Assembly (NCBI RefSeq): GCF_027891095.1
Contig: NZ_JAQIIO010000006.1
Location: forward strand, 62,001-126,000
Length of the DNA: 64,000 nt
Origin: Aliiroseovarius salicola
GTDB lineage: Bacteria; Pseudomonadota; Alphaproteobacteria; Rhodobacterales; Rhodobacteraceae
Direction of reading: 5' to 3'
Made by a program: the position numbers and the translations under genes. Shown here piece after piece: positions 3,432 through 29,565 of the stretch; within the stretch, counting starts at the first letter, position 1, and each line of letters opens with the position of its first letter. A model generated the notes under the pieces. The model was not told the origin of the DNA. It made no database searches and saw only the letters and a program-made list of their open reading frames with translations.

Positions 3432-3495
3432 GGTCTACATGTGCCAATCGTTCCGCGTGGTTGCAATAGGACAAAAGGGGTGCCAATAGGAGAAT

Positions 3496-4236: not shown

Positions 4237-4270
4237 GCCGCGCTGATGTGTCAGCGCGGCTTTTTCTTTT
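4237..4270. terminator. Intrinsic terminator, probably bidirectional
   Basis: A perfect 10-bp stem, GCCGCGCTGA and TCAGCGCGGC, has a TGTG loop and is followed by TTTTTCTTTT on the + strand. On the other strand the stem is followed by TTTCAACATTTT. It can end both the XRE regulator transcript and the leftward membrane-protein transcript whose stop is at 4275. Confidence 0.85.
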
Positions 4271-4274
4271 ACCT

Positions 4275-6804: not shown

Positions 6805-6883
6805 TTGAGCGACATTCCTTCGCGACCCTGATTGACTGAGGAAATTTCTACATGTGTCAAATAGTCTTTTCAAACTTTTAGCT

Positions 6884-6992
6884 TGGAACCCACGCTGTTA
6901 GGCGGTATAAAGTAATCACTGCTCGATAGGTTTCTTGCCTGTATGAAACCTGCCTCAATAACTTACGCCCGCCTTGTGCGGGCGTTTTTTTT
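6884..6992 (+). ncRNA. Candidate small RNA or untranslated attenuated leader
   Basis: The intergenic region between the binding-protein start and bdhA (381 bp) holds a promoter-like pair TTGGAA (6884-6889) and TATAAA (6906-6911) with 16-bp spacing. A hairpin AGGTTTC/GAAACCT (6928-6951) follows, and then a strong intrinsic terminator (6966-6992). No ORF of useful size lies between. The predicted RNA would be about 75 nt. It may be a free sRNA or a terminated leader of bdhA. The rest of the region shows nothing else clear. Confidence 0.35.
6966..6992 (+). terminator. Intrinsic terminator upstream of bdhA
   Basis: Stem CGCCCGC (6966-6972) pairs with GCGGGCG (6978-6984) around a CTTGT loop and is followed by eight T. 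No annotated + strand gene precedes it, which is why a small RNA or attenuator is proposed. Confidence 0.8.
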
Positions 6993-7185
6993 ATGGGCAT
7001 TCTGCAAGTGTGAAGCGTTTTGATTTAGAGATGCAACGAGAGAATCGGTGGGGTTGAGCCCTTGGAGTTCAACTCGCGATTCCCGCAATCTCTGCTCCGA
7101 CTTTGGTGTTTGGATGAAAAGGGCTGGTTCTGTTCATTCTTCTGTTTATGCTGCAACTGCAGAATATTTCGGGAAGGATTACAGA

Positions 7186-7971: not shown

Positions 7972-7997
7972 GCTGACCGCATCATGAACACTTTGGC

Positions 7998-8021
7998 GAG
8001 GGGCTTTCGTGCCCCTCGGTT
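7998..8021. terminator. Stem-loop between convergent bdhA and the LysE exporter
   Basis: GAGGGGC (7998-8004) and GCCCCTC (8011-8017) form a stem followed by GGTTCTTT. The T tract is short, so it is a modest terminator for bdhA. Confidence 0.55.
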
Positions 8022-8023
8022 CT

Positions 8024-8647
8024 TTACTGGATTGCGCCTGCTGACACGCCCTGGATCAAGCCTGCGGCGATGCCCCACATCACCACGCCGATGATCACAT
8101 CCAGCACCCGCCAGGATGCAGGTCGTGTCATAATTGGGGCCAGAAGGCGGGCGCCATAGCCCAGCGAAAAGAAAAAGACAAAGCTCGATAAAACCGCACC
8201 GAAGCCAAAGCTTATCCTTGCATCCCAGCTTGCGTAACTGGTCGAAATTGCTCCGATCAAACCCAATGTATCGAGATAAACATGTGGATTGAGCCATGTG
8301 AAAGCGGCTGCAATTGCGAGCGTTGCGGTGAGAGAGCGGGAATTGCCCGTCAGCTCCATCTCATAACCGCCGCGCCAAGCAGCCAGAAAACGCATCGAAC
8401 CGTAGACAATCAAAAACCCAGCCCCGGAAAGTGCCATGACGACAGGCAGCATTGGAAGTGCTGTCACCAAGGCCCCAAACCCAAGCACGCCAGCCGAGAT
8501 CAGCAGGGCATCGGAAAGGGCACAAAACAGGGATAAAGGAAACACATGTTTTCGCAGTAACCCCTGACGCAGGACAAAGGCATTTTGCGCACCGATCGCG
8601 AGGATCAGTGAAAAGCCTGTGGCAAATCCGGTGAGTGCCGCACCCAT
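8024..8647 (-). CDS. LysE/ArgO family amino-acid exporter
   Basis: Inner-membrane exporter of basic or other amino acids, 207 residues with about six hydrophobic segments. The N-terminal GFATGFSLILAIGAQNAFVL is the conserved LysE/ArgO signature. The region ATLAIAAAFTWLNPHVYLDT corresponds to the conserved WLNPHVYLDT loop of ArgO-like exporters. It follows the DUF502 gene with no gap between the stop of one and the start of the next, so the two are probably co-transcribed. No ArgP-type regulator is adjacent. Confidence 0.9.
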   Translation of the reverse strand: MGAALTGFATGFSLILAIGAQNAFVLRQGLLRKHVFPLSLFCALSDALLISAGVLGFGALVTALPMLPVVMALSGAGFLIVYGSMRFLAAWRGGYEMELTGNSRSLTATLAIAAAFTWLNPHVYLDTLGLIGAISTSYASWDARISFGFGAVLSSFVFFFSLGYGARLLAPIMTRPASWRVLDVIIGVVMWGIAAGLIQGVSAGAIQ

Positions 8648-14538: not shown

Positions 14539-14541
14539 GGA

Positions 14542-14982
14542 TCAATCCTTGTTCAAATGCGACAGAACTGCATCAATGGCCAATGGATATCCGGCCACCC
14601 CAAATCCGCAAATCTGACCGATCGCGGCTTTGGCGAGATATGATCGATGGCGAAATTCCTCGCGAGCATGGATATTTGTGAGATGAAGTTCAACCACCTT
14701 AGCCTCGGCTGAAATGATCGCGTCCATAATAGCAATCGACGTATGGGTGTATGCTCCTGCGTTCAGGACAATGCCATCATGCACACCGCGCGCGTTATGA
14801 ATTGCGTCGATCAGTGCTCCTTCATGATTGGACTGCACGCAGACACATTCTACACCACGTGCCTGAGCGTGACGCTGACACATATCTTCAAGCTCTTCGA
14901 GCGTGGTCGTCCCGTAGATCTCTGGTTGCCGTGTCCCCAAAAGATTCAGGTTCGGCCCGTTCAGCACCAAAATTGATGACAT
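14542..14982 (-). CDS. aroQ: 3-dehydroquinate dehydratase, type II
   Basis: Converts 3-dehydroquinate to 3-dehydroshikimate in the shikimate pathway, or runs in quinate catabolism; 146 residues, the normal size for the dodecameric type II enzyme. The N-terminal LNGPNLNLLGTRQPEIYG carries the catalytic Tyr loop, NAGAYTHTSIAI carries the substrate-binding Asn, and VELHLTNIHAREEFRHRS holds the active-site His and Arg. An AAGGGA site precedes the ATG. Coupling to a LuxR regulator is unusual for a housekeeping aro gene. Confidence 0.95.
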   Translation of the reverse strand: MSSILVLNGPNLNLLGTRQPEIYGTTTLEELEDMCQRHAQARGVECVCVQSNHEGALIDAIHNARGVHDGIVLNAGAYTHTSIAIMDAIISAEAKVVELHLTNIHAREEFRHRSYLAKAAIGQICGFGVAGYPLAIDAVLSHLNKD

Positions 14983-15979
14983 TCATATATCCCTTTTTCC
15001 CTGCATCAACTTAATCAAGAAGGATCAGGAATGTCGAGAGAAACAGAGCAGAGTTTGTCTTAGTCTTAAGGACAGGCTGTTAGAAAATTTTAAATTTCAA
15101 AATTCTCGTATTGAAAAAAGTACGCAAATTATCAGGATGTTGCAGTTCATTCTGGATCCGTTATTATAACATAATACCAATTATACGTATAATGATATGT
15201 TGTGGGCTCATGTGTACAAATCCGTAAAAAATGAAACTCCAATTTTGAACCTCAATTGTCAGTGTTTTTTATAACAATAGGAAGATGGTCCACCGCCCTC
15301 TTGAGTGGCAGCTTTAAAATCAGGAAATGCGCGCCATTGGTTGAAGCAGTATGCGCCGACCAAGCAAAATAGATCTGCGCCTGTCTGCTTTTCACTTATT
15401 CCTGACTGGCACCTCCGACGCAGTGAGGTTTTGCATGTATCAGAATGCAAAGGCCAAACGGGCAATATTTAATATGTGCCTCTCAAACCGCTCTTGTGCA
15501 TTCGATGTCAGGGCTTCGCTGAACCTACACCCTGAGATCGTGTTGCTTGAAAAGCCAAATCCGTCTTCTTCTCCCAACAGCAACGACAAAACCACCGCCA
15601 TGGTTTTTCAACGCGCGATGGCGTCCAAAGGTGAGAAGTACTTCGGTCTGACCAAAACAAGCTGTTTGCCTTATCGGGTAAGATCCGGCGCCTCCACAAA
15701 TTGAAAGCAGGATTGGCAGTGTTCAATCAATCGCCGGGAATGTTTCTGGCGCATGGTAGCAACTGATATGGACCGATCATGACGGGGATGGCGATCCCCC
15801 CTGCCCTCCATGAGATAGAGCGGACACCAAGTAAAATGTCGCCGCCTGATTGGGATGGTTTCACTGTTTTAGAAGATGCTTGTCCTCGCAAAGGTATGTT
15901 GGCCATTGTAACAGACACCGTCGCTGTGATCTGAAAGTCTCGTTTCGCGTGCAGTCTCAGGCCGTAGATGCCGACATCC
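14983..15979. other. Gene-free tract of about 1 kb
   Basis: No convincing gene is found here. The part from 15050 to 15250 is AT-rich and holds a perfect palindrome ATTATACGTATAAT (15180-15193). The part from 15250 to 15970 has only short frames (up to 117 codons) that overlap on both strands, lack ribosome-binding sites and resemble no family I recognise. It could be decayed sequence left from a lost gene or insertion, plus the aroQ-luxR promoter. Confidence 0.5.
15180..15193. promoter_or_regulatory. Perfect 14-bp palindrome upstream of aroQ-luxR
   Basis: ATTATACGTATAAT is self-complementary and lies about 200 bp upstream of the aroQ start in an AT-rich tract. It could be an operator, for example for the adjacent LuxR protein, but its base content also makes chance possible. 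Confidence 0.3.
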
Positions 15980-17689
15980 TTAGCTCAGGACATTCGGGAA
16001 CCCCAGTTTCAGGCGCACGCGTGATGCTTTGAAGATAATGACAAAGACAGATACCAGCATCAACGCAAGGATCATGGATAACGGCACCGCACTCACGATC
16101 ATGACGTCGCGGATCGAGCCGACCCCGCCGACCGCCATGATTGCCCCTGCATTGGCGGCAATGACAAAGGCCCAAATGATTGAATGGAAGGGCGTTTCTC
16201 CAAGTTTGTTACCGCCCGCCCCGATCGATTTGATGGCGATGATTGCTGCCGAAGCGGAGGCCACGATCAGGGTGAGAAAAAGAAGGACGAGAACCGCTTT
16301 GAAAACAGTGGCGACGCTGGGAGAGAGCATAATGTCAACTGTTTCGTAGATGCGATAGGCATGCTCGGCAGAGAGTATGGCTCCGCCGGCGGTTCCGTCC
16401 AGTTCCAGGGTCAGAGCGGTTCCGCCGGTGCCGGCGAACCAGATGAAGCACAAAAAGGCGGGTGCGACCATTGCGCCCAGTATGAACTCGCGCAGCGTGC
16501 GCCCGCGCGAAATCCGGGCCACAAACATTCCGACGAAGGGGGCAAAGGCAATCCACCACGCCCAGTAAAAGATCGTCCAGTCGCTTTGCCAGTTCCGTTG
16601 CGCACTTGATGCCGCGGAAATCTTGGGGTCATAAACTGTTATGGCTTGGGAAGCGAAAGATTTGAGGTAGGCGATGGTGCCGTCTGCGAGAACGCCCAGC
16701 ACGCGCATTTCTCCGCCGAAGAAGACAAACATAGCGAGCACCACGAAGAACAGGATCAGGCCCAGCTGCGATACCCATTTCACGCCGCGTTCAACCCCCG
16801 AGACGATCGATGCGATGGCCACTGCGGTCGACACGACCAGTGCGGTAAAGAGCGCGATCAGGGGCGGATTGCCAGCGTTGTCGGCAAAGAACCGACTGCC
16901 CGTCAGGATCGATAGCCCGGAACATATCTGTTCAAGCCCAAGAACGATTGTCGTGGTGATGCCCGCGATCACGGCCAGAATTGAAATAACATCAATGATA
17001 TGACCGACCGGCCCTTCAAGGCGCTTGCCCAGAATGACCGCCAGCCCGGATCGCATTGTCATCGGCTGGCCGTATCTGTGGCACGCGAGCCCAAGCGCCA
17101 GACCGACGATCGTGTAGGTGGCCCAAGCTGAAAAACCGTAGTGCAGGTAGACAAACCGCATGGCCGAGGAAACCGCCCCGGCACCGCCGGGTTCCATCGT
17201 TCCTGCGAGTAAATCGGGATTGGTCTGGAAATGGGACACCGGTTCGCTGACCGCGAAGGCTAGCGTGCCGATACCGATACCCGCACAAAACATCATCGTC
17301 AGCCAGGACTGCGTGCTGTGCTCGGGCAAAACACCGTCCGGGCCAAGCCTTAGCCGTTTTGAAACAGGCAGGCAGGCGATCACGATACACGACAGCAGGA
17401 TCAGCGCCATAGAGTAGACATACCAATCGGCAAACATCGTCAGTGTAACGGATTTCAGAGCATCCAGAATTCGGGCCGATGCCTCGGGCAGCATGATAAG
17501 AAAGATGACCATGCAGACGACGAGCAGTTTGGCGAAAACCGCCACAATGGGATTAAAGCCTTCGTAGACCCCCCGCTTCACAGTATGAATTCTAAGCGGA
17601 TTGGAGATGTTCCAAAGCGGTTTACGGCCTGTAATGACAGTAGCGGATTCTGAAAGCTGTAAATCTTCCGTTTGATCGATCTGCCGCAT
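15980..17689 (-). CDS. BCCT family transporter (betaine/carnitine/choline type)
   Basis: Inner-membrane secondary transporter for a quaternary-ammonium compound such as glycine betaine, choline or carnitine, or for DMSP in marine bacteria. About 569 residues with twelve hydrophobic segments. The BCCT signature DWTIFYWAWWIAFAPFVGMF, the aromatic substrate box, is near residue 355. The ATG at 17689 (MRQIDQTED) is chosen for its GAGAGGGG site; a GTG at 17770 would add 27 residues. A perfect CRP-type palindrome lies 136 bp upstream (17825-17840), next to the CRP-family gene, suggesting direct control. The C-terminal cytoplasmic tail is short. Confidence 0.9.
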   Translation of the reverse strand: MRQIDQTEDLQLSESATVITGRKPLWNISNPLRIHTVKRGVYEGFNPIVAVFAKLLVVCMVIFLIMLPEASARILDALKSVTLTMFADWYVYSMALILLSCIVIACLPVSKRLRLGPDGVLPEHSTQSWLTMMFCAGIGIGTLAFAVSEPVSHFQTNPDLLAGTMEPGGAGAVSSAMRFVYLHYGFSAWATYTIVGLALGLACHRYGQPMTMRSGLAVILGKRLEGPVGHIIDVISILAVIAGITTTIVLGLEQICSGLSILTGSRFFADNAGNPPLIALFTALVVSTAVAIASIVSGVERGVKWVSQLGLILFFVVLAMFVFFGGEMRVLGVLADGTIAYLKSFASQAITVYDPKISAASSAQRNWQSDWTIFYWAWWIAFAPFVGMFVARISRGRTLREFILGAMVAPAFLCFIWFAGTGGTALTLELDGTAGGAILSAEHAYRIYETVDIMLSPSVATVFKAVLVLLFLTLIVASASAAIIAIKSIGAGGNKLGETPFHSIIWAFVIAANAGAIMAVGGVGSIRDVMIVSAVPLSMILALMLVSVFVIIFKASRVRLKLGFPNVLS

Positions 17690-17824
17690 GTCAGGCCCCT
17701 CTCGTAGGCTGCGAACCGGTCCCAACGTGCCTCGGAGCAAGCCCGTCTGTGCATCACACATCCATGTCACGCTGACCGGTTCACCGGTTTTGTCCTAAGG
17801 TCGGAAATTTATGGGGGGTGCGTA

Positions 17825-17840
17825 TGTGAACTGCGTCACA
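17825..17840. promoter_or_regulatory. Perfect CRP-type palindrome upstream of the BCCT gene
   Basis: TGTGA-ACTGCG-TCACA matches the CRP consensus TGTGA-N6-TCACA in all ten defined bases. With the flanking TA it matches the site at 28663-28680 at 16 of 18 positions. It lies between the CRP-family gene stop and the BCCT start. Confidence 0.7.
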
Positions 17841-17858
17841 TTCGCGCGCGATCAAAGC

Positions 17859-18542
17859 TCAGAGCTGATCAAAAGACGCTATGTCCGAAAGCGCTTTATG
17901 GTCGAGGATAGTCAGATTTCCACGCCCAACTTCGACAATTCCAAGGTTCTTCCATTCAGCAAGCTTTTTCGAAACGGCTTCGCGCGTTGCCCCGACATGA
18001 TCGGCAAGAGCACTTTGGGATACGGAGATACGCCCGTTACGGTCTGAGACCTGCCCGGCAAGAAAAAGCAGACGCCGGGCGAGGCGGACCTCAAGTGGAT
18101 GAAATGCGTGATTTTCAAGCTGCATGCTGATCCAGCGGACGCGCCTGATCAAAAGCCCTAGCAATTCCAGTGCAAGATCCGGATTGTCCGAAAACTCGGC
18201 AAGTAGCCTCTGGCGGCCAACCTGCAACAGGTTGCTATCCTCCAGCGCGGTGACCGTGGCACTGCGTCGGCCGCCATCAAAAAGGGCGATTTCACCAAAT
18301 ATATCGCCGCTTTTCAGGACGTTCAGCGTCAGTTTGCGACCGTCATCCGAGAGGCTGCTGATTTCCAGCGACCCGCTTTTCAGCAGGTAGATGGAATCGC
18401 CTTCGTCGCCCTGCTGAAAGAGGTCCTGTCCGCGAGACACCACAGACACGGTCGACAAGGCGTGCAGCGCATCCGCCAGCGCATCCGTTTGCCCTGCCTC
18501 GCTCTCGACCTGAAAATTTCCACTCTTGCTGTTCATCGCCAT
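17859..18542 (-). CDS. Crp/Fnr family transcriptional regulator (CRP-like)
   Basis: Protein of 227 residues with an N-terminal cyclic-nucleotide-binding barrel and a C-terminal winged helix-turn-helix. The phosphate-binding cassette FGEIALFDGGRRSATVTA keeps the Glu, Arg and Ser that bind cAMP in CRP. There is no cysteine, so it is not an FNR-type iron-sulfur sensor. The recognition helix GATREAVSKKLAEW keeps the Arg-Glu pair that in CRP reads TGTGA (CRP has SRETVGR). It is the last gene of the leftward set that starts with the metallophosphoesterase, and it faces a TGTGA-N6-TCACA site. It probably responds to the product of the nearby cyclase. Confidence 0.9.
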   Translation of the reverse strand: MAMNSKSGNFQVESEAGQTDALADALHALSTVSVVSRGQDLFQQGDEGDSIYLLKSGSLEISSLSDDGRKLTLNVLKSGDIFGEIALFDGGRRSATVTALEDSNLLQVGRQRLLAEFSDNPDLALELLGLLIRRVRWISMQLENHAFHPLEVRLARRLLFLAGQVSDRNGRISVSQSALADHVGATREAVSKKLAEWKNLGIVEVGRGNLTILDHKALSDIASFDQL

Positions 18543-18585
18543 AGGTTAACGAATAGGGCAAATCGTTGTTCGAAGAAACGCTTCT

Positions 18586-19281
18586 TTAACCAGCACTTAG
18601 CTGTTTCGTCACTTCAATGAGTTTTTTATGGGTATCGCGCGCAAGGCTTGCCTCGAGATTTGTCCTGATGTCGGGGTTTCTGCGGCACAACTCCTTGAGG
18701 GTGCCGGTCTCAATCGCAAACAGGCGGATCGGGCTGATCGCCTGCAAGGTTGCACTTGCGGGACCGCCAGAAAAACAGGTCAGTTCTCCGATGAAATTCG
18801 GCGCGGCCATTTCCCTGATCTGGGAGCCGCCTGCGCTGACCTGCACTTTTCCATCGGCCAGATAGTATAAAAATCCGATTTCCTGCCCCTGTGTGGTGAT
18901 CGCTTCGCCCGCAGGCTTGTCGAACCAGATCCCGGCATTCAGCAACTGACGTGCCTCCAGAACGGGAAATTCGCTCAGACCGAGCTCGACCAGCGCACGC
19001 TCTTCCGGGGAAAATCGGACGCGCCGGGACAAGATGAAAAACCGCGTGATGCCAAAAATGCTGATCGTGATCCAGCTGATCTGGATGATCGCGGACCACA
19101 GGTTGAAATTCATCACCAGCGACAGCAGCACCAGCGCAGCGGCCATGAGGTTGAGACAGGCATAGGTATACCCGGCCCCCTGAATATACCCCAACTGCAG
19201 CGCGGCGTAGGAGCCGAGATAGAAGGCAACCCCCAGAAAACCCGCAATCTCGTAGACTTGCTGCGAAAACAGCCCTTCCAT
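18586..19281 (-). CDS. CBU_0592-like membrane domain fused to a cyclic-nucleotide-binding domain
   Basis: Protein of 231 residues. The first 80 hold three hydrophobic segments (about 10-30, 36-56, 62-84) whose sequence, including LNLMAAALVLLSLVMNFNLW, resembles the small CBU_0592-type membrane domain. Residues about 105-220 form a cyclic-nucleotide-binding barrel (FLYYLADGKVQV, then NFIGELTCFSGGPASATLQA). In the phosphate cassette the usual Arg before Ser-Ala-Thr is Ala, so ligand affinity may be weak or altered. Three membrane segments followed by this domain recall animal Popeye proteins in layout only. It lies between the GMC-hydrolase gene (31 bp) and the CRP gene (43 bp). Confidence 0.75.
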   Translation of the reverse strand: MEGLFSQQVYEIAGFLGVAFYLGSYAALQLGYIQGAGYTYACLNLMAAALVLLSLVMNFNLWSAIIQISWITISIFGITRFFILSRRVRFSPEERALVELGLSEFPVLEARQLLNAGIWFDKPAGEAITTQGQEIGFLYYLADGKVQVSAGGSQIREMAAPNFIGELTCFSGGPASATLQAISPIRLFAIETGTLKELCRRNPDIRTNLEASLARDTHKKLIEVTKQLSAG

Positions 19282-19312
19282 ATCGGTTCGCTCCGTGATT
19301 TTCGGAAGAATG

Positions 19313-22300
19313 TTAACCTTTGTCGGCCTGAGTTGCAGGGTATTTGTTTAGCTCATGAATGATGGCAGGGAAGATATCTTTATAGGCCCTCTTTCCGATG
19401 AAAGTATCCATATGTCCGTAATCGGCAAACACCTGACGAGAATAGTTCTCATAGTCCGGATTTTCCGTACGAAGCCATTCATAGGTGTGCAGTGATGTAT
19501 CGGGCGTAAATTCCAGATTGAGCGCCCCGGCAATAAAGTGGATCGGCACACGCAACCTTTCAGGATACTTTATATAGATATCCTCGCCACTTGCGCTGAC
19601 CGCATATCCCTTCCGGGTTATCAGAGCGATTTGCTCAAAGGGTGTGGTCCCGATTTCCCCGAATACAGTCTGGATCGCATCATGGGTTGCCTCATTCAGG
19701 TTTTGGTGCAGGTAGGATGGCCCGTAGATGCCGAAAATCCGGTGACAGGTCGGGCTGTAACAGGGTGTACCATTAGGGAACGGCGCCCCCCAGAGCATGA
19801 CATTCAACGCCTGGTCTTCATTGGAAGTACCGCAGTTGGGGTCAACGACCGATGTCGCGTTGATCGTTTTCATGCCCTCGAACAGCTTCGCGGTATCTGG
19901 CCCGATCACGCTGTCCAGAACGGGGTAGAGAGACTTCGGCACACCGTTTACGATCCAGGACGCCATCTTGGTGTCGGCCTTCAGCTTGTTGAACCAATTG
20001 GTAACCGGGTGAACTGTCAGTTGCGAAGACACAATCGACCGGATCTTGCTGGCATCAAGCTTGCCTGACAGAAGCGCCATCAGCATGCTCATTGATCCGA
20101 CGCAGTGTACCACCGTCTGGACCTGCTTGGCGCCGGTGGCCTTGAGCACATAGTCGACCGCGGCGGGCCAATCCTCTTGCGCGATGTCATCGACGTTGAA
20201 CGGCTGCTGGTTGGTTTTACCCAGCGCAGGGCTGGCGCGATAATCGAATAGCCAGACGTCATACCCCTCTTTACACAGGGATTCGACGATGTTTTCCTCC
20301 ATGGTTTCCATAACGTAGGATTGCGCGACAACGCCAAATCCGGGCGCCAGGATCACCGGGCACTTGGCCGGGCCCTTGTTCTGCGCCGATCCGTTATAAC
20401 GCACCATCTGCAGGTCAAACCCCGGTGCCGCTTTGAACGGGTGCCATTCTGAAATGACCTCTGGCAGGTTGCGCAATGACGCCCCTGAAACCGCCGGAAG
20501 CGGAGTAATCTTGTCGCGGGACGGGAAATTGTAGAGATAAGCCAGCATCCCGCCATAGGTACGGAAAATCAGTTCACCGAAGAACGCAGCGAACTTCAGC
20601 TGATAGTAATACTGCGTGTACTCCGCGGCAGCCTTTAACCTTTCCTTGTTATCTGTGATCGGCTCTACAGGATTGAGCGCCATATCAACGACGCTGAGAA
20701 TGATCTGGCGCCGAATGTCCGGCTTCTTCAGATCTTCGTTCAGAATGCCATACCGGATGCCGCCGTAACCCAGTGGCTCTGGTACACAATCGAGCATGAG
20801 CTTGGTAAATACATTTTTGCCGTCATATTTATCCAGCTTTGGATCGAACTCCGAAGTCAACGTCGCCAGTTGCGCCAGAAAATCCTGCATCCCAAGCGTA
20901 ATCACGCCACGCGCGACCGGGCCATTCGCATCGCTGATATCAACCGCCAAGGTCGTCAGATCCGTCCACCAGTTCGAGCCATCACGCCTGTGAAGCGTCT
21001 TGACCCCTTTGAAACCAAATCCTGTGGTGGCGCCGTCAGGCAGCATGTCGCAGGTATAGATCATCTGCCATGTTTCCACATCGGCCTTGTCAAGTTTCAA
21101 CAGTTTGAACGTGCCGTTGCTGATCGTGTAAGTGACTCCTTTCCATTCGATTGTACCGCCAAGTTGGGCCAGATGTTTCGGGCAGGCCGTCAGCACCTCG
21201 ATATCCTTCGTTGCTACCTTGAAATGAGCGACCAACTTTTCATTCTGTGCTTGGCCTCGTTTTGCAGCAATCTTGTAGGGATCGGAAAGGATACCCGTGC
21301 CATCGTTGGTAGCCGCGCTTACATGGCCCGTCATGGTTTCGTCGAATTTCAGGTCTGGTGCGAAATTGCCAAGTTGACGCTGCAACACCACGACCAGCTC
21401 GGCGTAATCTCCCGGATTGTCGCCTGCGGCTTCCAGCACCGGGTCCAGAACACCCAGTATCTCTACAATTGCAGGCGCAATGTCCTTGGAAAGTTCATAT
21501 GAATGCTTCAGGTAGTGTTCAAACGGTCCCAGGTAGTCTCCATAGCCAAGATCAAACTTGTCATTCACTTCCTTGGCAAAATTATAGATCTGTTCGGCAG
21601 CGTCAGACGTTTTTTCATCCTTTATCTTCTGCTGTAGATCAGTCAGCCAGATCTTGGCCTCGGCAAGTCCTTTGACCGCCAGATTCCAGCCGTCAAAAGA
21701 TGTCTGACCGGGAACCGGTTTTTTCACCGGCTGGTTCACCGCACTGTGCGCGACGTGTTTTTGACCCAGCCGTTTAATGAGGTTTTCCATCGCCCGTTCG
21801 GTCACCGCCGAAATGGTCAATAGAGGGTTCAGGCCTAGCGACGTGGGCATCACCGAGCCGTCACAAACATAGAACCCCTGGTAGACCTCGCTGCTGTCAT
21901 CCGGGTTGCCAGTGAAGACACGGCATTCGTGGTCGACCACCCCCCGCGTCGCATCGTCCCCCATGATACAGCCGCCAACAGGATGCACGGTAATCAGCTG
22001 GTGCCCGAAATTTTCGTGCCAAAGCGGATTGGCCAGGTAATTACCCCAGATCGCATCAGAAGCGTTATGCAGCAATTTGTTGTCACGGTTATAGGGAAAC
22101 TCGGTCCCGACACCGGGCCAGTTGACCTCGACCGTTTGGTGATCGGTGTTCCAATCAATGGTCCCGCCAGAGCTGTCATGCGACATCAGTAGAAACGACT
22201 GCGTGCGGCTCATGGCACCGGTATAGGCCAGCGTTGACAGGCCGCTGCCCGATAGGATTGCCGTTCCCAGATCCTGCGCGTCTTCGAGGCGCAACTGCGC

Positions 22301-23689
22301 GTCGGGGAAACGTGTCATCTGACCGTGCAGCGCCTCTTGCATTAAGAAGATCGCCGGATAGACCAGAGACAGGGCTCCGGGCGCGACGCCTTCCTCGATT
22401 ACAGCAGCGCGTTCGACGGGTTCATCCTCACCCATTCCAACCTTGATGACGCCGGTAATGCAGGGGCCGGGTCGCAGGATCGAGTTTTCACCTTTTTCTG
22501 CCGGGGACAGCGGATAGTTTGCCCCGGCACCGACCCCCCAGATCGGCTCTCTTTCGTTGCCCGCCGCGCGGGCTTCGGGGCTCCAGTTGGCATCAAACGC
22601 AAAGCCAAGAACGTCTCCATTCCCGGAAAAACGTGTACCCAGTTTGTCCGACAGGAAAGTTACGTCCGGGTTGTTTTCGCGCAGCTTATTGCGGCTTCGC
22701 AGAAGGATTTCCGTCGACCCAAGTGTTCCTGCGCCCAGTACCACCGTTTTCGCGGTCAGGGTCGTTGATCCGCCCGCAGTGGAAAGGTCCTCGATATGCA
22801 CATTCCAAGAACCGCCCTTTTCGACCGGCGGTGACAAATGAGTTACCTGAGCCTCAGTCACCAGGATCGCGTGGAATGAACGTGCGTAAGGCAGATAGTT
22901 CATCAACGTGGTGTTCTTTGCGCCATAGTTGCAACCGGCACAGCAATCCCCGCACATCGTGCAGGCAACCTGTTCGACACCTGCTGCATTCGGCCCGTCC
23001 TTGAAGGTGACATTGATATCCGGCCGGTGAAAAGGTTGCTGCAACGCGTCTGCCGATACTTTCAGCGCCTGCAACTTGTTTGGATTGAAGTCTTCCGGCA
23101 AAGGCGTGGCGCCCAACATCTTACGGGCGCTGGCATAATATTTAGCCAGAATATTTGGATACTTATCTTGGTCCTTATCCTTGTTCCTGTCACCCTCCTC
23201 GCATTTCTGCCGGAATTCCTTGGGCCAGTAATATTCGCCATCTGCCGTGGTTTGCCAAAAGGTCTTGGGGTCGGTTTCCAGTGACACATTTGCATTGATC
23301 AGCGACGTGCCGCCCAGACCGCAGCCGACGATCACGTTCATGTCTTTGTTGATCCGGATATCGAGCATGCCGTTGGGGTTGGGCGCGTTATCACCGCCAA
23401 TGGCAGATTTCAGCTTGCCGCTTTCAGCTGTTGTCACCTGCGTCTCGCGGATCGCCGATTTCAGGTCGGTCGGATAGTGGCCGGGCAATATTTCTCGCCC
23501 GCGCTCCAGCAAGCAGACCTTCTGCCCGGCTTCTGCCAGACGTGCAGCGGCGATCGCGCCGCCATAGCCAGAGCCGACGACAATCACGTCGATTTCGGTC
23601 GAGTCCCATTGCTTGTCATGCACGCGTTCTTCGCGTGTTTTTTCAAGATCACTCAAAGCGATCGAAATTCTCTGGAACGTCAAAGTCAT
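19313..23689 (-). CDS. Giant GMC oxidoreductase (cholesterol-oxidase-like) fused to an alpha/beta hydrolase
   Basis: Protein of 1458 residues with no signal peptide. Residues about 30-650 are a GMC flavoenzyme: FAD motif VVGSGYGGAIAAARLAEAG (about 37-55), GCGLGGTSLINANVS (about 122), and the active-site HPVGGC and GLNPLLTIS near 590-640. A Cys cluster C243, C246, C249, C253 (CX2CX2CX3C) has ferredoxin-like spacing. A middle region (about 660-1080) has no known fold to me. Residues about 1100-1450 form an alpha/beta hydrolase with Cys1196 in VHCVGSM at the nucleophile elbow and His1426 in DYGHMDTF. Known relatives oxidise sterols or other hydrophobic alcohols. It starts by ATGA overlap after the metallophosphoesterase gene. 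Confidence 0.85.
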   Translation of the reverse strand: MTLTFQRISIALSDLEKTREERVHDKQWDSTEIDVIVVGSGYGGAIAAARLAEAGQKVCLLERGREILPGHYPTDLKSAIRETQVTTAESGKLKSAIGGDNAPNPNGMLDIRINKDMNVIVGCGLGGTSLINANVSLETDPKTFWQTTADGEYYWPKEFRQKCEEGDRNKDKDQDKYPNILAKYYASARKMLGATPLPEDFNPNKLQALKVSADALQQPFHRPDINVTFKDGPNAAGVEQVACTMCGDCCAGCNYGAKNTTLMNYLPYARSFHAILVTEAQVTHLSPPVEKGGSWNVHIEDLSTAGGSTTLTAKTVVLGAGTLGSTEILLRSRNKLRENNPDVTFLSDKLGTRFSGNGDVLGFAFDANWSPEARAAGNEREPIWGVGAGANYPLSPAEKGENSILRPGPCITGVIKVGMGEDEPVERAAVIEEGVAPGALSLVYPAIFLMQEALHGQMTRFPDAQLRLEDAQDLGTAILSGSGLSTLAYTGAMSRTQSFLLMSHDSSGGTIDWNTDHQTVEVNWPGVGTEFPYNRDNKLLHNASDAIWGNYLANPLWHENFGHQLITVHPVGGCIMGDDATRGVVDHECRVFTGNPDDSSEVYQGFYVCDGSVMPTSLGLNPLLTISAVTERAMENLIKRLGQKHVAHSAVNQPVKKPVPGQTSFDGWNLAVKGLAEAKIWLTDLQQKIKDEKTSDAAEQIYNFAKEVNDKFDLGYGDYLGPFEHYLKHSYELSKDIAPAIVEILGVLDPVLEAAGDNPGDYAELVVVLQRQLGNFAPDLKFDETMTGHVSAATNDGTGILSDPYKIAAKRGQAQNEKLVAHFKVATKDIEVLTACPKHLAQLGGTIEWKGVTYTISNGTFKLLKLDKADVETWQMIYTCDMLPDGATTGFGFKGVKTLHRRDGSNWWTDLTTLAVDISDANGPVARGVITLGMQDFLAQLATLTSEFDPKLDKYDGKNVFTKLMLDCVPEPLGYGGIRYGILNEDLKKPDIRRQIILSVVDMALNPVEPITDNKERLKAAAEYTQYYYQLKFAAFFGELIFRTYGGMLAYLYNFPSRDKITPLPAVSGASLRNLPEVISEWHPFKAAPGFDLQMVRYNGSAQNKGPAKCPVILAPGFGVVAQSYVMETMEENIVESLCKEGYDVWLFDYRASPALGKTNQQPFNVDDIAQEDWPAAVDYVLKATGAKQVQTVVHCVGSMSMLMALLSGKLDASKIRSIVSSQLTVHPVTNWFNKLKADTKMASWIVNGVPKSLYPVLDSVIGPDTAKLFEGMKTINATSVVDPNCGTSNEDQALNVMLWGAPFPNGTPCYSPTCHRIFGIYGPSYLHQNLNEATHDAIQTVFGEIGTTPFEQIALITRKGYAVSASGEDIYIKYPERLRVPIHFIAGALNLEFTPDTSLHTYEWLRTENPDYENYSRQVFADYGHMDTFIGKRAYKDIFPAIIHELNKYPATQADKG

Positions 23690-25224
23690 ACCAAGCCCCC
23701 CGTTTTCTTTGCGTCTGCATCGGCTTTCCGGGCCATTTCAAGGATGAGATCCTGCCGCGCGCCGTAGGCCCGCGCCGCCGCAACCGAAAACTTGTTCCAG
23801 CAGGGTCTGTTTTCTGCCGGGGCTTCGAAGAATTCGCGCAGAGTCTGGAGCAGATTGTTGTCTTTTTCCGGCGTCGGATCCGTGGATGAAACGGCACCTT
23901 TGCCAAGATATTTGATATCGTGCGCATTGTTCAGATCGACATTCACCGGCGGCTCGAACAATCGCAACGAGGCGGTGTTCAATTGATCGTCAACAAAGAC
24001 AACAGAGGCTCCCTCGACCGTGCTCATCAAGCTTGTATCAAGGATCCAACCGCCGGTGTTATAGATCGACACCGGGTCATCAAATCCTTCGACAACCAAC
24101 TGATCTTCAAAGGGTTTATGGGTGTGACCAAAGACAACTGTTGTGCTGATTGGCATCCCGCCATGTCCATCGCCCGATCCGCCACCAGGGTTTGAAACAG
24201 GCAGACGCGAATGCAACTCTTCCCGCATCTGCTTTAGAACAGCACTGGAAATATAGTTTCTCAGACCTTCGATCGATGAAGCGGATAAATGCTGGGTATA
24301 ATCATAGCGTTCCAGCTGCGAAAACTTGCCCACAATCGCATCCATGAAACCGGCTGTGATCATATCAAGACCGCCGGACACCGCTGGTGTATTGGGCAGG
24401 TTCAGGTTCTTGATCAGCCATTTCTTGAGAACCTGAGCCAACCTCAGGGTGAACTCGTCAGAGGCCCCGCCAGTCAGCAACAGCTGATATGCGATTGAGA
24501 CATCCTTGCCCAGAAGCCCGGAATCTCCGATCGTGGACCAACCAAAATCAATCCACGTCCCGTTATACTTTTCCAGTTCTTCGCAAGACAGATCATCTTC
24601 TTTTAGCCCGCTTAGCACACCCAAAAGATCGCTCATCATCCGGTACATCGACTCGATGAAATGACCATGGTGGAAGACAATGGCACGATTTTCATCCTGC
24701 GACTGAATTCCGAAATTCGGATAATAAAGTGGCACGCGCACGGGCGTATCGAGCCCGGACAGAAGTTCTTCAAGCTTGCGAGACCGGGGGACATCGGACG
24801 CCGATGCAAAGGCGGGCGTCACATGCGAAAACCCCTTTTGCGAAAACTGCGGACTGTCAAATCTGGCTTCCGTCCACAAAGAGTGGTCGTGGTTGCCGGG
24901 GATGAAAGGCATGGATGTCGAAAAGCTGCCGGTTTCGTACAGCGGTGTCAGAAAGCCCTTCAACGCATTGAAGGTGCGATCCGGCGGCGACAGCGACAGA
25001 TCCAGCCCGTCCCCGAGCAGAACCAGATCCGGCTTGCGGATCGTGGTTTGGTTGATGTGGCCGAGAAGCTCACACATTGCTGCGGCAAAGGTCTCTTCTA
25101 TCGATGCGGTCGGTTTCCCGTTATGGAGGGGTGGTGTTTCATCCGTTGTCACCAGACTGGTCAGCGCGCCGGCATGCAGATCCGATATGCATACATGTGT
25201 GATAATCGGCTTAGTATCAGTCAT
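23686..25224 (-). CDS. Calcineurin-like metallophosphoesterase
   Basis: Protein of about 512 residues with all the dinuclear-metal motifs in order: CISDLHAG (D, H), LLGDGLDL (GD), IPGNHDHS (GNHD), VFHHGHF (H) and VFGHTHKP (GHTH). Relatives hydrolyse phosphomonoesters, cyclic nucleotides or nucleic acids. The ATG at 25224 (MTDTKPIITHV) has a GGGGGAGAG site; an upstream start adds 13 residues. It is the first gene of the leftward set and overlaps the GMC gene start as ATGA. It lies next to the cyclase, so it could remove cyclic nucleotide, but no specificity-determining feature proves this. Confidence 0.85.
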   Translation of the reverse strand: MTDTKPIITHVCISDLHAGALTSLVTTDETPPLHNGKPTASIEETFAAAMCELLGHINQTTIRKPDLVLLGDGLDLSLSPPDRTFNALKGFLTPLYETGSFSTSMPFIPGNHDHSLWTEARFDSPQFSQKGFSHVTPAFASASDVPRSRKLEELLSGLDTPVRVPLYYPNFGIQSQDENRAIVFHHGHFIESMYRMMSDLLGVLSGLKEDDLSCEELEKYNGTWIDFGWSTIGDSGLLGKDVSIAYQLLLTGGASDEFTLRLAQVLKKWLIKNLNLPNTPAVSGGLDMITAGFMDAIVGKFSQLERYDYTQHLSASSIEGLRNYISSAVLKQMREELHSRLPVSNPGGGSGDGHGGMPISTTVVFGHTHKPFEDQLVVEGFDDPVSIYNTGGWILDTSLMSTVEGASVVFVDDQLNTASLRLFEPPVNVDLNNAHDIKYLGKGAVSSTDPTPEKDNNLLQTLREFFEAPAENRPCWNKFSVAAARAYGARQDLILEMARKADADAKKTGGLV

Positions 25225-25361
25225 TTGCTCTCCCCCGGATAATAGTTCGTTTTTTTTACTCACCTAACCGGATCGGAGGGAAATACGTATCCAGTGCCCC
25301 TCGTTTCCTTACTAATTGGTAAAGAATTTCCTCACAATTTTCATGATTTTGAATTACAATC

Positions 25362-25377
25362 AGTAATCCAGATCACA
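25362..25377. promoter_or_regulatory. Degenerate CRP-like site in the cyclase/phosphoesterase divergent promoter
   Basis: AGTAA-TCCAGA-TCACA has one perfect half-site (TCACA) and one half that matches three of five bases. It lies in the region from which both the leftward operon and the cyclase gene are read, so it would be a natural place for feedback by the CRP-type regulator. Confidence 0.3.
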
Positions 25378-25446
25378 CGATGAATTTTTTTGCTGCTCAC
25401 AACCACAAGCAGACAAGCATTCGGAATAAATAACAAGGGAAACAAT

Positions 25447-28400
25447 TTGCGCTCACCGAATTTGAACACCATCGACGCAGATGCAAATCCCGGGCAAAAG
25501 CGATGGGCCGCGGTTCTGTTTGCTGATCTGGAGAACTTCACCGCCATTTCTGAACAGGCCGGACCCGAGAAAACCTATGAGTTGATCACAAGCATCGTTC
25601 AGTCCTCCTGGCGGCTGGTCGAAAAATATCAGGGCAGCCCGATCGAATATGCCGGAGACAGCATTCTTGCAGCCTTTGGGGCGCCGATCGCCGTCGAAAA
25701 TGCATCTCTGAACGCTTGTCTCGCTGCGCTGGCGCTGCAGGCGGAAATGGCTGGGCGTGCAGAGGAATTTCAACGGCAATTTGGTGCCAAGCCGAAGTTT
25801 CGGATCGGGATTGCCGGTGGCGTTATTGTCATTGGTACATTTGGTCTGGAGGCCAAGATGGATCTCAGCCTTGTCGGGGAAACCGTTAATCGAGCCTCGC
25901 GGATACAGAATTCTGCGAAAGCGGGCGAAATCCTCTGTTCCCAGTCGATCTGTGACCAGGTCAAAGGTCATGTTTCCATGACCCACCTTGGGCCGATAAA
26001 GCTTAAGGGTTTGTCAGGAGAGAATGAGATCTTCAGGCTCAATGGTCCAAAATCCAACATCTCGGAATTTGAAGGCCGGCTAGAGCGTGGCAGTAAAATG
26101 TTTGTCGGCCGCGAGGACGAGTTGGAAACCTTGTCCCGCTGGATTAACGCGTCTCCTGACACCGCCGGCATTATCCAGCTCCACGGCCCCGCAGGTATCG
26201 GCAAGTCCCGACTTTTATTCGAAGCGCTGAACCAGGGTCCCCACACAAAACGACGGATCCTGACGGCGCACTGCAACCGCGACATTTCGACAAAGTCGCT
26301 TGCTGCCTTCATCCCCCTGCTGCATAGCGCAATCGGCTGGAAACCGGATGATACGCGCGACAAACTTGAAACCGGCCTAAGCCGCCTGCTGGGACCCGGT
26401 GACCAAGGTGCCGAGCCACTGAGCGAGCTGCTTCTGAATTCTGACGATTGGAGTAAAAACGCCGATCACGATACAGCGGTCCATGTCCGCGCGGCGATTG
26501 TTAAGGCATTGTCCAATATCTGCTCGGACCCAGGAAACCTGGTGATCATAGAAGATGCTCACTGGATCGATCCGGTCAGCGCGGACATCTTGCGCAAACT
26601 GGCAGAGACCCGAAACGGAAACGTAAAGTTTTTGTTCAGCCGCCGCAGTGATCACACCATTGGCCGGATTAAAGATGTTGGCATTCACGACATCGCGCTG
26701 AAGCCATTGCTGCCTGCCAATATCAGCGAGATCATCATCGACCTCCTGGGGGTCGTTGCAATCCCCTACCCCCTGCTTGATTTTGTTACCTCGACAACCG
26801 AGGGCAATTCTCTTTTTGTCGAAGAAACCATCCGCTATCTGATCAGCTCCAATCAGGTCGTCGTCGAGAACGGCACCGTCTCATTCAAGCCCGACGCCAA
26901 ATTGCAATCCACTTCGGGCAACCTGCAGCACCTTATCCTGAGCCGGTTCGATGCTTTGGATGCCTCGACAAAAGATGTCCTGCTGATTGCCGCAACCAAG
27001 GGTCGCAGATTTTCCGAGGACTTTATCTCGCAATGCGTGAAAGACCCTTCGGCGACGGAAAAGGCGATAGCGCGCGCAGCGACCGCGGGTCTGATCGAGC
27101 CGGATGGAGACGATGTATCTGGACATTGGCGATTTGCTCATGCCCTCATTGCCAATGCGATCAGCCAAAGCGTTCTTGCCCGACACCGTGCGCAGTTGCA
27201 TGCGACCGTGGCAAGCGGGCTGGAAATCGACGAGGCGTCAGCCGCGACCTTTACCGAAGAGTTATCCTATCACCATGATCAGGCAGGAAATGCGGCCAAG
27301 GCGGTCTATTACCTATCGAAATCAGCGGAAAAGGCGCTTGCGATCTATTCCATCGTTCAGGCCGACGAAGCGCTGGAGCGCGCCTTTGACCTCATCGGGG
27401 AAAACCCGAATGTCGTAGGTAACACCCAATTCGCGGAAATGCTTGAACTTTGGGCGCGCACGCTGAATATCTTTGGCGATTTCAAGAAACTGAACATTAT
27501 CGTCGAGAAGTATCTGCCGCGCCTGTCCGCGACAAGCGCGAGCAAGCAGCGGGCAATCTGCCTGACGCTGCAAGCCATTTCGCGCACTCACGCTGGCGAA
27601 CGGACATATGCCATAAACCTGATCGAGCAAGCCGTGAAAATCTCAGAGGAAATCGGTGATCCGCACTCATTGGCCTGGGCAAAAGCCGCGATGCTGCGCG
27701 TTTATGTCGAAGCGGGCGTTGCAACGCTCGACGAAACAAAGGCGCTGTACGACGATATCCGTGCTTCTTTTGCGGAATTCAAAGACCCATCCCTGACCCA
27801 GATGGCGATCTATTCAATGTCGGCTGCCTATCGGGAAAGCGGCCAGCTCAGGCAGTCAGAGCGCCTTATCGATGAGATCGAGAACTACGGCCGCAAACAC
27901 GGGGATACCCGCGCCCTGGGCATGGCGGGTTGGGCGCGAGCCATTAACAAGTGGTTGGCTGAAGACATAGAAGCCATGGCCGCCGCCGCCGATCAGGCAA
28001 TGCAATACAGCCTTCCGGACACCGGCGACTGGAGGGTAGGCGCAATTAGCGAACTTGCGGTGGATCTCATGCAGAACAGCGGTTCGGAACGCGTGGATGA
28101 ATTCCTTATTTACAAGGAAAATGCGCTGCATAGCGAAGACATGAGCCTATATCTGGCCTGTGGCTTTCAGTATTGCGTGCATTCAATGCGACGTGGCCGG
28201 GTGCGCATTGCGTGGAACGAATTGCAAAGTCTGGAAGAGGCAGCAGTGCGGGTTGGAACATCAGAGCAAAAGACCCAGATCAGCCTGCTTAAAGCGCGGT
28301 TGTTGATCGCACTTGCGGGCCTGGAAAAAAGCACCGCTGAGCGCCCCAAAATGGCTCTGGCAGATATCATCAGGGCGATCACCCTAAAGATCGGCGCTGT

Positions 28401-28626
28401 CAACAAGGCAAATCTGGTGTTGCATGACCTGTCGGATAGATATCCCTTCAAAACCGGTCTGATCGCCGCACATATCCAATTCGGTTTTGGCCTGATCGCC
28501 AAGTCCCAACGCCAGCAGAAACTGGCAAAAGAACATTTCCGAGCGAGTCATGACCTGTTTTCAGAAGAAGGGCTAACCCGTCGCGCGGAACAATCTTTGG
28601 ACTTGCTGCAAGGCATCGACACGTAA
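25447..28626 (+). CDS. Class III nucleotide cyclase with AAA ATPase and TPR-like region
   Basis: Protein of about 1059 residues. A class III cyclase domain fills about 15-190: metal-binding Asp27 (LFADLENFT) and Asp71 (YAGDSI), and transition-state Asn148 and Arg152 (VNRASR). The substrate-specifying positions are Glu67 and Ser141, where adenylate cyclases usually have Lys and Asp or Thr; Glu is typical of guanylate cyclases. An AAA/STAND ATPase follows (Walker A GPAGIGKS, Walker B VIIEDAHW), then about 450 residues of helical TPR-like repeats. No membrane segment is seen. A TTG at 25447 is chosen because AAGGGA precedes it; a TTG at 25390 would add 19 residues. It is divergent from the phosphoesterase operon. 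Confidence 0.87.
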   Translation: MRSPNLNTIDADANPGQKRWAAVLFADLENFTAISEQAGPEKTYELITSIVQSSWRLVEKYQGSPIEYAGDSILAAFGAPIAVENASLNACLAALALQAEMAGRAEEFQRQFGAKPKFRIGIAGGVIVIGTFGLEAKMDLSLVGETVNRASRIQNSAKAGEILCSQSICDQVKGHVSMTHLGPIKLKGLSGENEIFRLNGPKSNISEFEGRLERGSKMFVGREDELETLSRWINASPDTAGIIQLHGPAGIGKSRLLFEALNQGPHTKRRILTAHCNRDISTKSLAAFIPLLHSAIGWKPDDTRDKLETGLSRLLGPGDQGAEPLSELLLNSDDWSKNADHDTAVHVRAAIVKALSNICSDPGNLVIIEDAHWIDPVSADILRKLAETRNGNVKFLFSRRSDHTIGRIKDVGIHDIALKPLLPANISEIIIDLLGVVAIPYPLLDFVTSTTEGNSLFVEETIRYLISSNQVVVENGTVSFKPDAKLQSTSGNLQHLILSRFDALDASTKDVLLIAATKGRRFSEDFISQCVKDPSATEKAIARAATAGLIEPDGDDVSGHWRFAHALIANAISQSVLARHRAQLHATVASGLEIDEASAATFTEELSYHHDQAGNAAKAVYYLSKSAEKALAIYSIVQADEALERAFDLIGENPNVVGNTQFAEMLELWARTLNIFGDFKKLNIIVEKYLPRLSATSASKQRAICLTLQAISRTHAGERTYAINLIEQAVKISEEIGDPHSLAWAKAAMLRVYVEAGVATLDETKALYDDIRASFAEFKDPSLTQMAIYSMSAAYRESGQLRQSERLIDEIENYGRKHGDTRALGMAGWARAINKWLAEDIEAMAAAADQAMQYSLPDTGDWRVGAISELAVDLMQNSGSERVDEFLIYKENALHSEDMSLYLACGFQYCVHSMRRGRVRIAWNELQSLEEAAVRVGTSEQKTQISLLKARLLIALAGLEKSTAERPKMALADIIRAITLKIGAVNKANLVLHDLSDRYPFKTGLIAAHIQFGFGLIAKSQRQQKLAKEHFRASHDLFSEEGLTRRAEQSLDLLQGIDT

Positions 28627-28664
28627 GCATTACGCCCCCCCCTTCATTTAAAATCAGCCAGCTA

Positions 28665-28680
28665 TGTGAACCGCTTCACA
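28665..28680. promoter_or_regulatory. Perfect CRP-type palindrome upstream of the PACE gene
   Basis: TGTGA-ACCGCT-TCACA matches all ten defined CRP consensus bases and lies 94 bp before the PACE gene start, downstream of the cyclase stop. It is nearly identical to the site at 17825-17840. Confidence 0.7.
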
Positions 28681-28773
28681 GAACATCAAGTGATTTCAAT
28701 TCAAGACTTGGGTACGGCACGACGCCTGGGCCTTAAACCCAGCCCGTAGTGCTTGCCTGGGGAGGATGACCAG

Positions 28774-29217
28774 ATGGCTTTGAGATCACGAAAAGAACGC
28801 ATCGTCCAGACAATTAGTTTCGAGCTGGGTGGGCTGATGATTGCAGCACCACTGTATGCGTCAATATTTAATACCTCCTCAGGCCATTCACTCTCTCTTT
28901 TGTTGTGTATTTCTGCGGTGGTGCTCGCCTGGGCGCCCCTGCACAACACGTTTTTCGACAAATTTGATCTCTACGTCTTTCACCGATTGGCCAGCGACCG
29001 CCCGCACAGGTGGCGGGTGCTCCACGCGATTTCTCTGGAACTGTCGTCAATCACCTTGACCTTTCCCGTCGTCATGCTGATCAGCGGGCATGGTGCCTGG
29101 GGCGCCTTGGCTGTCAATGTCGGGCTTACGCTTTTCTACACTGCGTATGGTTATCTGTTTCACCTTATGTTCGACAAGGTGCGCCCGGTGCAATCGGGCA
29201 CGTTGCTTTCCGAGTAA
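28774..29217 (+). CDS. PACE family efflux transporter
   Basis: Small inner-membrane protein of 147 residues with four hydrophobic segments arranged as two bacterial transmembrane pairs. The family motifs are visible: RIVQTISFELGGL at the N-terminus of the first pair, WAPLHNTFFDKFD between, VLHAISLELSS at the second pair and YGYLFHLMFDKVRPV at the end. PACE proteins (AceI type) export chlorhexidine, acriflavine or short diamines by proton antiport. The ATG at 28774 has a GGGGAGGA site. A CRP-type operator 94 bp upstream may tie it to the neighbouring cyclic-nucleotide genes. Confidence 0.9.
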   Translation: MALRSRKERIVQTISFELGGLMIAAPLYASIFNTSSGHSLSLLLCISAVVLAWAPLHNTFFDKFDLYVFHRLASDRPHRWRVLHAISLELSSITLTFPVVMLISGHGAWGALAVNVGLTLFYTAYGYLFHLMFDKVRPVQSGTLLSE

Positions 29218-29565
29218 CCACTGCGCTGTAGTCGGTTGCGACATTCGCTTATCTGAAGATGATTGGTGATCGCGTCTCATGAGTGATCTGCGATCTAAAA
29301 CGGAAATCGGGGACCAGCCACCAAATTAAGACAGCTAAAGGCAGCTCTGGGCCATTCACGCGCGCCACGCCGGTTTAAATGAAGGTCCAGAAAAACTGTT
29401 CAGCGCTCTCTCGGCTGCTTTGCTGTAAACGTTCCCTATTAGTCGCCCCAAATCTGTTCTTCAGTTTCATTAAACAAGTGCTTGGCCCGCTGAATTTATT
29501 GAATTCTGAATCTCAAATTTTGCTGATTTCCACAGGATGAGAAGCATCCAACTCATGTTCAACTT
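29218..29565. other. Gene-free gap between convergent PACE and phoB genes
   Basis: No coding frame, strong stem-loop or recognisable RNA is seen in these 348 bases. The part next to phoB is AT-rich. Confidence 0.5.

Follow-up and report, generated by a model that had tools for sequence, protein, structure and literature searches.

A metallophosphoesterase and a GMC oxidoreductase/hydrolase fusion beside a STAND-type cyclase regulator in a sporadically distributed island of Aliiroseovarius salicola

Do the seven genes between positions 15980 and 29217 of a 64,000-nucleotide stretch of Aliiroseovarius salicola DNA (assembly GCF_027891095.1, contig NZ_JAQIIO010000006.1, positions 62001-126000; the whole stretch is called the window below) form a signalling system, a metabolic pathway with its own control, or separate modules that have become neighbours? 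The original prediction assigned open reading frames (ORFs) and domains to these genes, and domain searches recovered all seven at the expected positions. It described a self-contained loop in which a class III cyclase makes a cyclic nucleotide, a CRP-type regulator and a membrane protein sense it and a metallophosphoesterase (MPE) degrades it, with a GMC oxidoreductase/hydrolase fusion and two transporters as the output. Comparison with other genomes demonstrated that the island is genuine, conserved and sporadically distributed, and that its constant core is the MPE and the GMC/hydrolase. Judged from sequence, its interpretation as a conserved metabolic-plus-control island, in which these two enzymes are joined by a STAND-type regulator and nucleotide-binding effectors, is held with modest confidence.

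Recurrence of the gene set

The family survey covered 295 Rhodobacteraceae genomes representing 295 genera, with the family taken in the wide sense; the closest GMC relatives belong to the Paracoccaceae/Roseobacteraceae. A GMC search at E<=0.001 matched 153 of the 295 genomes, although matches other than the long fusion were weak (best 1.6e-8). Seven genomes have the long fusion, complete or in large part: A. salicola itself (G000), G146, G063, G202, G208, G079 and G160, the last on a short contig. The MPE profile matched eight, comprising all seven long-GMC genomes and G228. Among 385 class-level and 398 phylum-level genomes, the A. salicola genome alone carried the MPE at E<=1e-20 (one genome in each set), and the single match (E<=1e-3) in a collection of 72,556 plasmid records adjoins a long GMC gene in Variovorax. 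A generic phosphoesterase is ruled out by the rarity of the family (8/295, 1/385 and 1/398).

Loci for comparison were collected by scanning contigs with the GMC alignment, and the best 80 of 265 confirmed loci were retained. The long type is represented by 20 loci (the 18 loci L046–L063, L037 and L126) and the short type by 62 (L064–L125); L048, L052, L059 and L060 seem to duplicate the contigs of L035, L036, L033 and L034 and were counted once. The same three profiles were run on both types. With models trained partly on loci later counted, the MPE was detected at 19 of the 20 other long-type loci vs 4/62 short-type loci (L103 weakly, E 2e-4, yet beside its GMC gene), and the class III cyclase at 16/20 (degenerate in L062) vs 2/62. 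Cyclic-nucleotide-binding domain (CNBD) proteins were found at 10/20 vs 0/62, with a model trained on Rhodobacteraceae sequences that may lose sensitivity in other phyla. The genes were thus found together elsewhere, which was the check that the original prediction had set for itself. The sole long-type locus lacking the MPE, L049, begins at a contig end. In the profile search, no cyclase was detected in long-type loci L049 (6.4 kb), L058 (9.2 kb), L056 and L126, nor in L112 (a 9.5-kb contig) and L119, where the MPE is present. Gene order and strand differ between loci.

In a GMC tree built by a quick method and rooted at the midpoint, 17 Rhodobacteraceae loci, including the window and leaving out L049, formed one group with SH-aLRT support of 100, and the beta- and gammaproteobacterial proteins fell on the short-type side.

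The enzyme pair

The fusion gene (19313..23689, minus strand) encodes 1458 residues, with a middle domain between the GMC part and a Cys alpha-beta hydrolase part. The best profile match of the N-part was cholesterol oxidase (E 3e-36), and the score against the cholesterol oxidase model NF058674 was 144 bits, well below the cut-off of 850. The C-part matched lysosomal acid lipase, gastric lipase and PHA synthase, and a model of residues 775-1458 (mean pLDDT 87.9) gave a TMt of 0.71 against gastric lipase. Cholesterol oxidase and lysosomal acid/gastric lipase are therefore the nearest solved sequences or folds to the two parts; unlike them, the island protein is a fusion, has Cys1196 rather than Ser at the nucleophile position and carries a four-Cys motif, CxxCGDCxxGC, which we take to resemble that of Fe-S GMC dehydrogenases such as FAD-glucose dehydrogenase. 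This motif, the GMC His and Asn, Cys1196 at the nucleophile elbow and the terminal His1426 were retained in 39 of 39 sequences (the window, the 20 long-type proteins and 18 of the 62 short-type proteins). A Ser nucleophile is defining for acid/gastric lipases, and an acid/gastric lipase proper was rejected on the Cys found in all 39. Short-type proteins (about 1140 aa) come from many phyla, and the 18 compared agree with the long type in domain order and catalytic residues; unlike the long type, they mostly lack MPE, cyclase and CNBD neighbours. One short-type gene (L127:5914-9276) is carried by a plasmid of Rhizobium leguminosarum, with PhaE and CoA-transferase genes nearby.

The MPE gene (23686..25263, minus strand; 525 aa) is the first gene of the operon, and by ORF coordinates it overlaps the GMC gene by 4 bp. 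The protein scored 20.9 bits against Pfam Metallophos, slightly below the cut-off of 21.5. Residues D28, H30, D85, N124, H125, H199, H201, H380 and H382 were invariant in 14 aligned sequences, and the protein contains the class III phosphodiesterase motif D-Xn-GD-Xn-GNH[E/D]-Xn-H-Xn-GHXH as given in the available text of PMC4222275. Its structural model (mean pLDDT 78.1) was nearest to LpxH (TMt 0.56), then to SMPDL3 and purple acid phosphatase, and Rv0805 ranked 41. From this model, a lipid-type phosphoester is favoured as the substrate.

These properties bear directly on the closed loop of the original prediction, in which the MPE degrades the nucleotide that the cyclase makes and the CRP and membrane proteins sense. 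The recurrence of the gene set, the class III motif of the MPE and the presence in G228 of MPE and cyclase without GMC are all consistent with such a loop. Set against this, the MPE stays with the GMC gene where the cyclase is undetected (L056, L126, L112, L119) or degenerate (L062), its model is nearest to LpxH, with Rv0805 only at rank 41, the membrane protein lacks a phosphate-binding Arg, and no activity on 3',5'-cAMP could be detected for SpdA, a comparable enzyme, according to the part of PMC4222275 available. Overall, the loop is unlikely, and the MPE is more likely an enzyme of the pathway than the phosphodiesterase of the signal. Searches of open-licence PubMed Central returned no description of the enzyme pair or of the MPE family.

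The regulator and the cyclic-nucleotide-binding proteins

The third gene of the recurrent set (25390..28626, plus strand) diverges from the MPE gene across 126 bp and encodes a 1078-residue protein with a class III nucleotidyl cyclase domain (Guanylate_cyc), a STAND-type AAA_16 ATPase and a C-part. Pfam found no TPR in the window protein, and the C-part was assigned as TPR through relatives such as L137 and L126. The TOMM kinase/cyclase family (TIGR03903) aligns with residues 87-651, but at 179 bits against a cut-off of 706, and no kinase domain was found.

The residues of a class III cyclase (metal-binding D46 and D90, and the transition-state residues N167 and R171) are intact in the window. 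Among 18 sequences with the cyclase stretch, both Asp residues were present in 17 (L062 has lost both) and the Asn was gone in L061 and L062. The ATP-type Lys, expected three residues before the GD glycine, is replaced by Glu86; elsewhere this position holds E, D, S, T, N, Q or G, and K only in L138 of the 18. This and a second position are those that we take to select the base, and the pairs vary among islands: Glu/Ser, Glu/Asn, Thr/Asn and a charge-swapped Asp/Lys, with Asp at the Lys position and Lys at the second in L054, L055 and L037. In an alignment with solved cyclases, the window Glu lies opposite Glu of 2w01 and Lys of 3r5g and 6fht; 2w01 is presumably the guanylyl cyclase Cya2, although the entry itself is named adenylate cyclase. 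The regulator probably makes a cyclic nucleotide in Rhodobacteraceae. In L053 (14166-17267, plus strand), the cyclase gene is present as two ORFs of 305 and 711 aa with a stop between them. In Shimia abyssi (L046:2299-4272, minus strand), a RoxA-like cytochrome c domain, for which we assume a rubber-oxygenase kinship, is encoded one gene from the cyclase gene.

The output domain of the third gene is not the same everywhere. In Rhodobacteraceae a class III cyclase fills this place. At two betaproteobacterial loci it is taken by an OmpR-type DNA-binding domain: a 976-aa protein of Variovorax (L126), encoded beside GMC, consists of Trans_reg_C, AAA and TPR, and a 1792-aa protein of Aquincola (L062) consists of Trans_reg_C, a weak cyclase remnant and AAA_16. 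In Bacteroidota, the gene after GMC-MPE encodes a 7TMR-DISM cyclase in L079 and a 7TMR-DISM histidine kinase in L119. These arrangements suggest that GMC-MPE is the payload and that the third gene is a controller which can be exchanged. A broader proposal is that a STAND sensor family is dedicated to one oxidase-hydrolase pathway, that its output has evolved between DNA binding and cyclic-nucleotide synthesis, and that the base-selecting pair of the cyclase drifts, so that islands may use different nucleotides, each with a locally encoded receptor; as a whole this is put forward only tentatively, with more doubt than belief.

Two CNBD proteins are encoded downstream of the GMC gene. The CRP-family regulator (17859..18542, minus strand; 227 aa) combines a cNMP_binding domain (Pfam) with a Crp-type helix-turn-helix (HTH) domain (HTH_Crp_2), and its cassette, GEIALFDGGRRSATV, keeps the Arg, as had been predicted. 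It has Ser at what we take to be the adenine-recognising position (E. coli numbering), that is, a cAMP-type residue. Ser serves cAMP in CRP, Glu serves cGMP in XC_0249 and Asn serves cUMP in PycTIR, as stated in the available part of PMC11224242. The CRP of L057 has Asn at the base-recognising position. Beside the CRP and GMC genes of an uncultured member of the Rhodobacteraceae (L058:5702-8922, plus strand), there is a Clostridium P-47 match with a second related ORF; these P-47-type proteins are presumably kin to lipid-binding TULIP proteins.

The membrane protein (18586..19281, minus strand; 231 aa) has a CBU_0592 N-part and a cyclic-nucleotide-binding fold, and members of its family occur in L052 and L048. 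Both the window protein and that of L052 have PASAT where CRPs have R; the phosphate-binding Arg is also lost in L048a and L050a and is kept in L048b and L050b. Because this Arg is missing, binding of a cyclic nucleotide by the window protein is doubtful, and the sensor role once given to it is not sustained. The Popeye domain (PF04831) was rejected as an identification, with no match in the window and 25.0 bits against a cut-off of 28.1 for the L050 protein. Near the cyclase of L048, a gene (2215-4443, minus strand) for a SulP-type permease with STAS and CNBD parts is flanked by two further CNBD genes.

A non-canonical cyclase with a membrane CNBD effector could also suggest Pycsar-like defence. 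The best PADLOC matches were PycC for the cyclase (61 bits) and PycTIR for the membrane protein (43 bits), and the base-selecting residues of the cyclase are unusual. These matches are limited to the cyclase and CNBD stretches, as expected of shared superfamilies; moreover, no TIR was found, the effector lacks the Arg and the constant partners resemble metabolic enzymes, which makes defence highly improbable.

The pattern TGTGA-N6-TCACA occurs perfectly only twice in the window, both times between genes of the island: at 17825..17840, ahead of the BCCT gene and 18 bp beyond the 3' end of crp, and at 28665..28680, upstream of the PACE gene. Seven perfect sites occur in the whole 3.58-Mb genome and none of the reversed control pattern; the other five lie inside called ORFs (PurK, a TPP enzyme, TauE, the last 21 bases of ThiF at L149, and a 216-aa ORF without family at L152 that may not be a real gene). 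In Alterinioella, TGTGAACCACATCACG precedes the BCCT gene, and no other site with 0-1 mismatch occurs in this 22-kb locus. Twelve loci of the CRP subfamily (L186-L197, including the window and Alterinioella) were fetched from 50 matching genomes; each has one 0-1-mismatch site, perfect in 8, and in 11 of the 12 it lies 5-240 bp 3' of crp (889 bp away in L188). The motif is therefore likely to be the operator of this subfamily. At other CRP islands, perfect sites are confined to L061, where the site lies 12 bp 3' of crp, and L037, where it is 3 kb from that gene. That of L037, at 5213, stands before the neighbour of a caspase gene (Peptidase_C14 with Sel1 repeat; 5733-8186, plus strand) located upstream of the island CRP.

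The wide occurrence of these regulators raises the possibility of a modular neighbourhood, in which MPE, GMC and cyclase are one system and the CRP, membrane CNBD and BCCT genes are an unrelated module settled beside it. Both the CRP and the membrane-protein families are common outside the island; with a cut-off of E<=1e-15, the latter matched 29 of the 295 genera, and of 20 loci examined, the window and Alterinioella alone have this CRP and BCCT adjacent. These two share related CRP (about 50%), membrane (57%) and BCCT (62-64%, L036/L052) proteins, though their GMC proteins are not sisters. Against such a module, nine CRP genes of two clades (the window included) and the membrane CNBD genes of four loci either adjoin the trio or adjoin one another next to it; CNBD neighbours were found neither in the 62 short-type loci nor in long-type L056, L126 and L062, where the cyclase is undetected or degenerate; and the second CRP-type site stands before PACE, on the far side of the cyclase. 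The modular explanation is accordingly possible but not favoured. The island CRPs could not be treated as one clade, for the group of 11 rows had support of only 45/0 and its L048 and L050 rows are membrane CNBD proteins without HTH.

Several further observations weigh against the metabolic-plus-control island. A shared nucleotide is doubtful because the cyclase has Glu in place of the ATP-type Lys and the CRP keeps the cAMP-type Ser; the two point to different nucleotides and might not share one. The CRP is not special to the island, since the same motif placement recurs across its subfamily, which was found in 50/295 genera (E<=1e-30) as compared with 7 for the island, and in the island genome G146 its copy is on a different contig, where its neighbour is another class III cyclase (L190). 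Within the other island CRP clade, L061 is alone in having a 0-1-mismatch site close to crp; the loci of L053 and L055 contain no such site, and in L054, L057, L058 and L037 it lies away from crp. CRP control of the enzyme operon is unsupported because the CRP-like site in the divergent MPE/cyclase promoter has 2 mismatches, a chance level (25 found vs 28.2 expected), and it was not used. G228 has the MPE and a divergent cyclase-AAA gene with no GMC gene there, and the GMC search did not match this genome, which favours a link between MPE and cyclase. The effector is not always encoded locally, as no CNBD neighbour was seen at 10/20 of the other long-type loci. Finally, the loci share ancestry and their counts are not independent, which makes the Poisson value of 9e-9 for 10/20 loci (from about 5% per 20 kb, given nine CNBD places in the A. 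salicola genome) only a guide. Nor is self-containment of the island supported, for one further class III cyclase and seven CNBD places lie outside it in the same genome. What survives of the proposed loop is the recurrent cyclase/MPE/GMC set, the CNBD proteins alongside it and the predicted CRP sites before both transporters; as a closed loop it is only partly supported.

Extent, known systems and the proposed circuit

The remaining genes are accessory. After the GMC gene, the spacings are 31 bp to the membrane-protein gene, 43 bp to crp and 88 bp to the BCCT transporter gene (15980..17770, minus strand; 596 aa), whereas the PACE-family efflux transporter gene (28753..29217, plus strand; 154 aa) follows the cyclase gene. 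Among 88 other GMC-bearing or island loci searched, BCCT occurred at just two, both on one Alterinioella contig, and PACE was not found, which gives no support to the suggestion that the transporters export or import the substrate. Rfam and tRNA scans of the whole window gave no matches. In the genus-mate G879, the flanking LuxR-type and PhoB-type genes are near each other with a 90-aa ORF between them, and no MPE match was found. For these reasons, the stretch without counterpart there (approximately 14540..29565) was probably gained or lost as one block. The block also takes in a 117-aa ORF and aroQ, a type II dehydroquinase gene (14542-14982, minus strand).

In the work on cGMP in Rhodospirillum centenum, the CRP-type regulator is reportedly CgrA. 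That bacterium likewise employs a cyclic nucleotide (cGMP) in an alphaproteobacterium, but for a developmental regulon, and no enzyme island is mentioned in the available part of the source (PMC4681086). As in the island, XC_0250/XC_0249 of Xanthomonas comprise a class III cyclase joined to a TPR-containing part and an adjacently encoded CNBD receptor; the Xanthomonas cyclase makes cGMP, the receptor XC_0249 is a CNBD-GGDEF protein and no enzyme pair is named in the portion available (PMC3770947). The claim that no such system had been described holds only in part, as cyaD1-clr-spdA of Sinorhizobium meliloti unites genes for an adenylate cyclase, a CRP-like regulator and a class III-type phosphodiesterase at one alphaproteobacterial locus (PMC4222275). 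The available text names no GMC/hydrolase there, and SpdA acts on 2',3'-cyclic nucleotides (PMC4222275). The Clr box is TGTTN8AACA or a relaxed form, as opposed to TGTGA-N6-TCACA in the island (available text of PMC5498481).

In the metabolic-plus-control island as proposed, the STAND/TPR part would sense the substrate or a cue tied to it. The regulator would act directly on transcription in betaproteobacteria, while in Rhodobacteraceae it would make a cyclic nucleotide to which adjacent CNBD proteins, mostly CRP and some membrane CNBD, would give the response; the window CRP would act at the two perfect sites, one ahead of BCCT and one ahead of PACE. As a pair, the enzymes may release a bulky hydrophobic alcohol from its ester and oxidise it, and the MPE may remove or hydrolyse a phosphate group in the same pathway. 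The arrangement suggests a dedicated control circuit for a fatty or steroid-like substrate. The loci define an enzyme pair, together with an MPE family whose presence predicts that pair. If the proposal is true, a bacterial cyclic nucleotide would be tied to one metabolic island, and nature would have supplied a comparison between two lineages, one in which this kind of sensor works through a second messenger and one in which it works through DNA binding.

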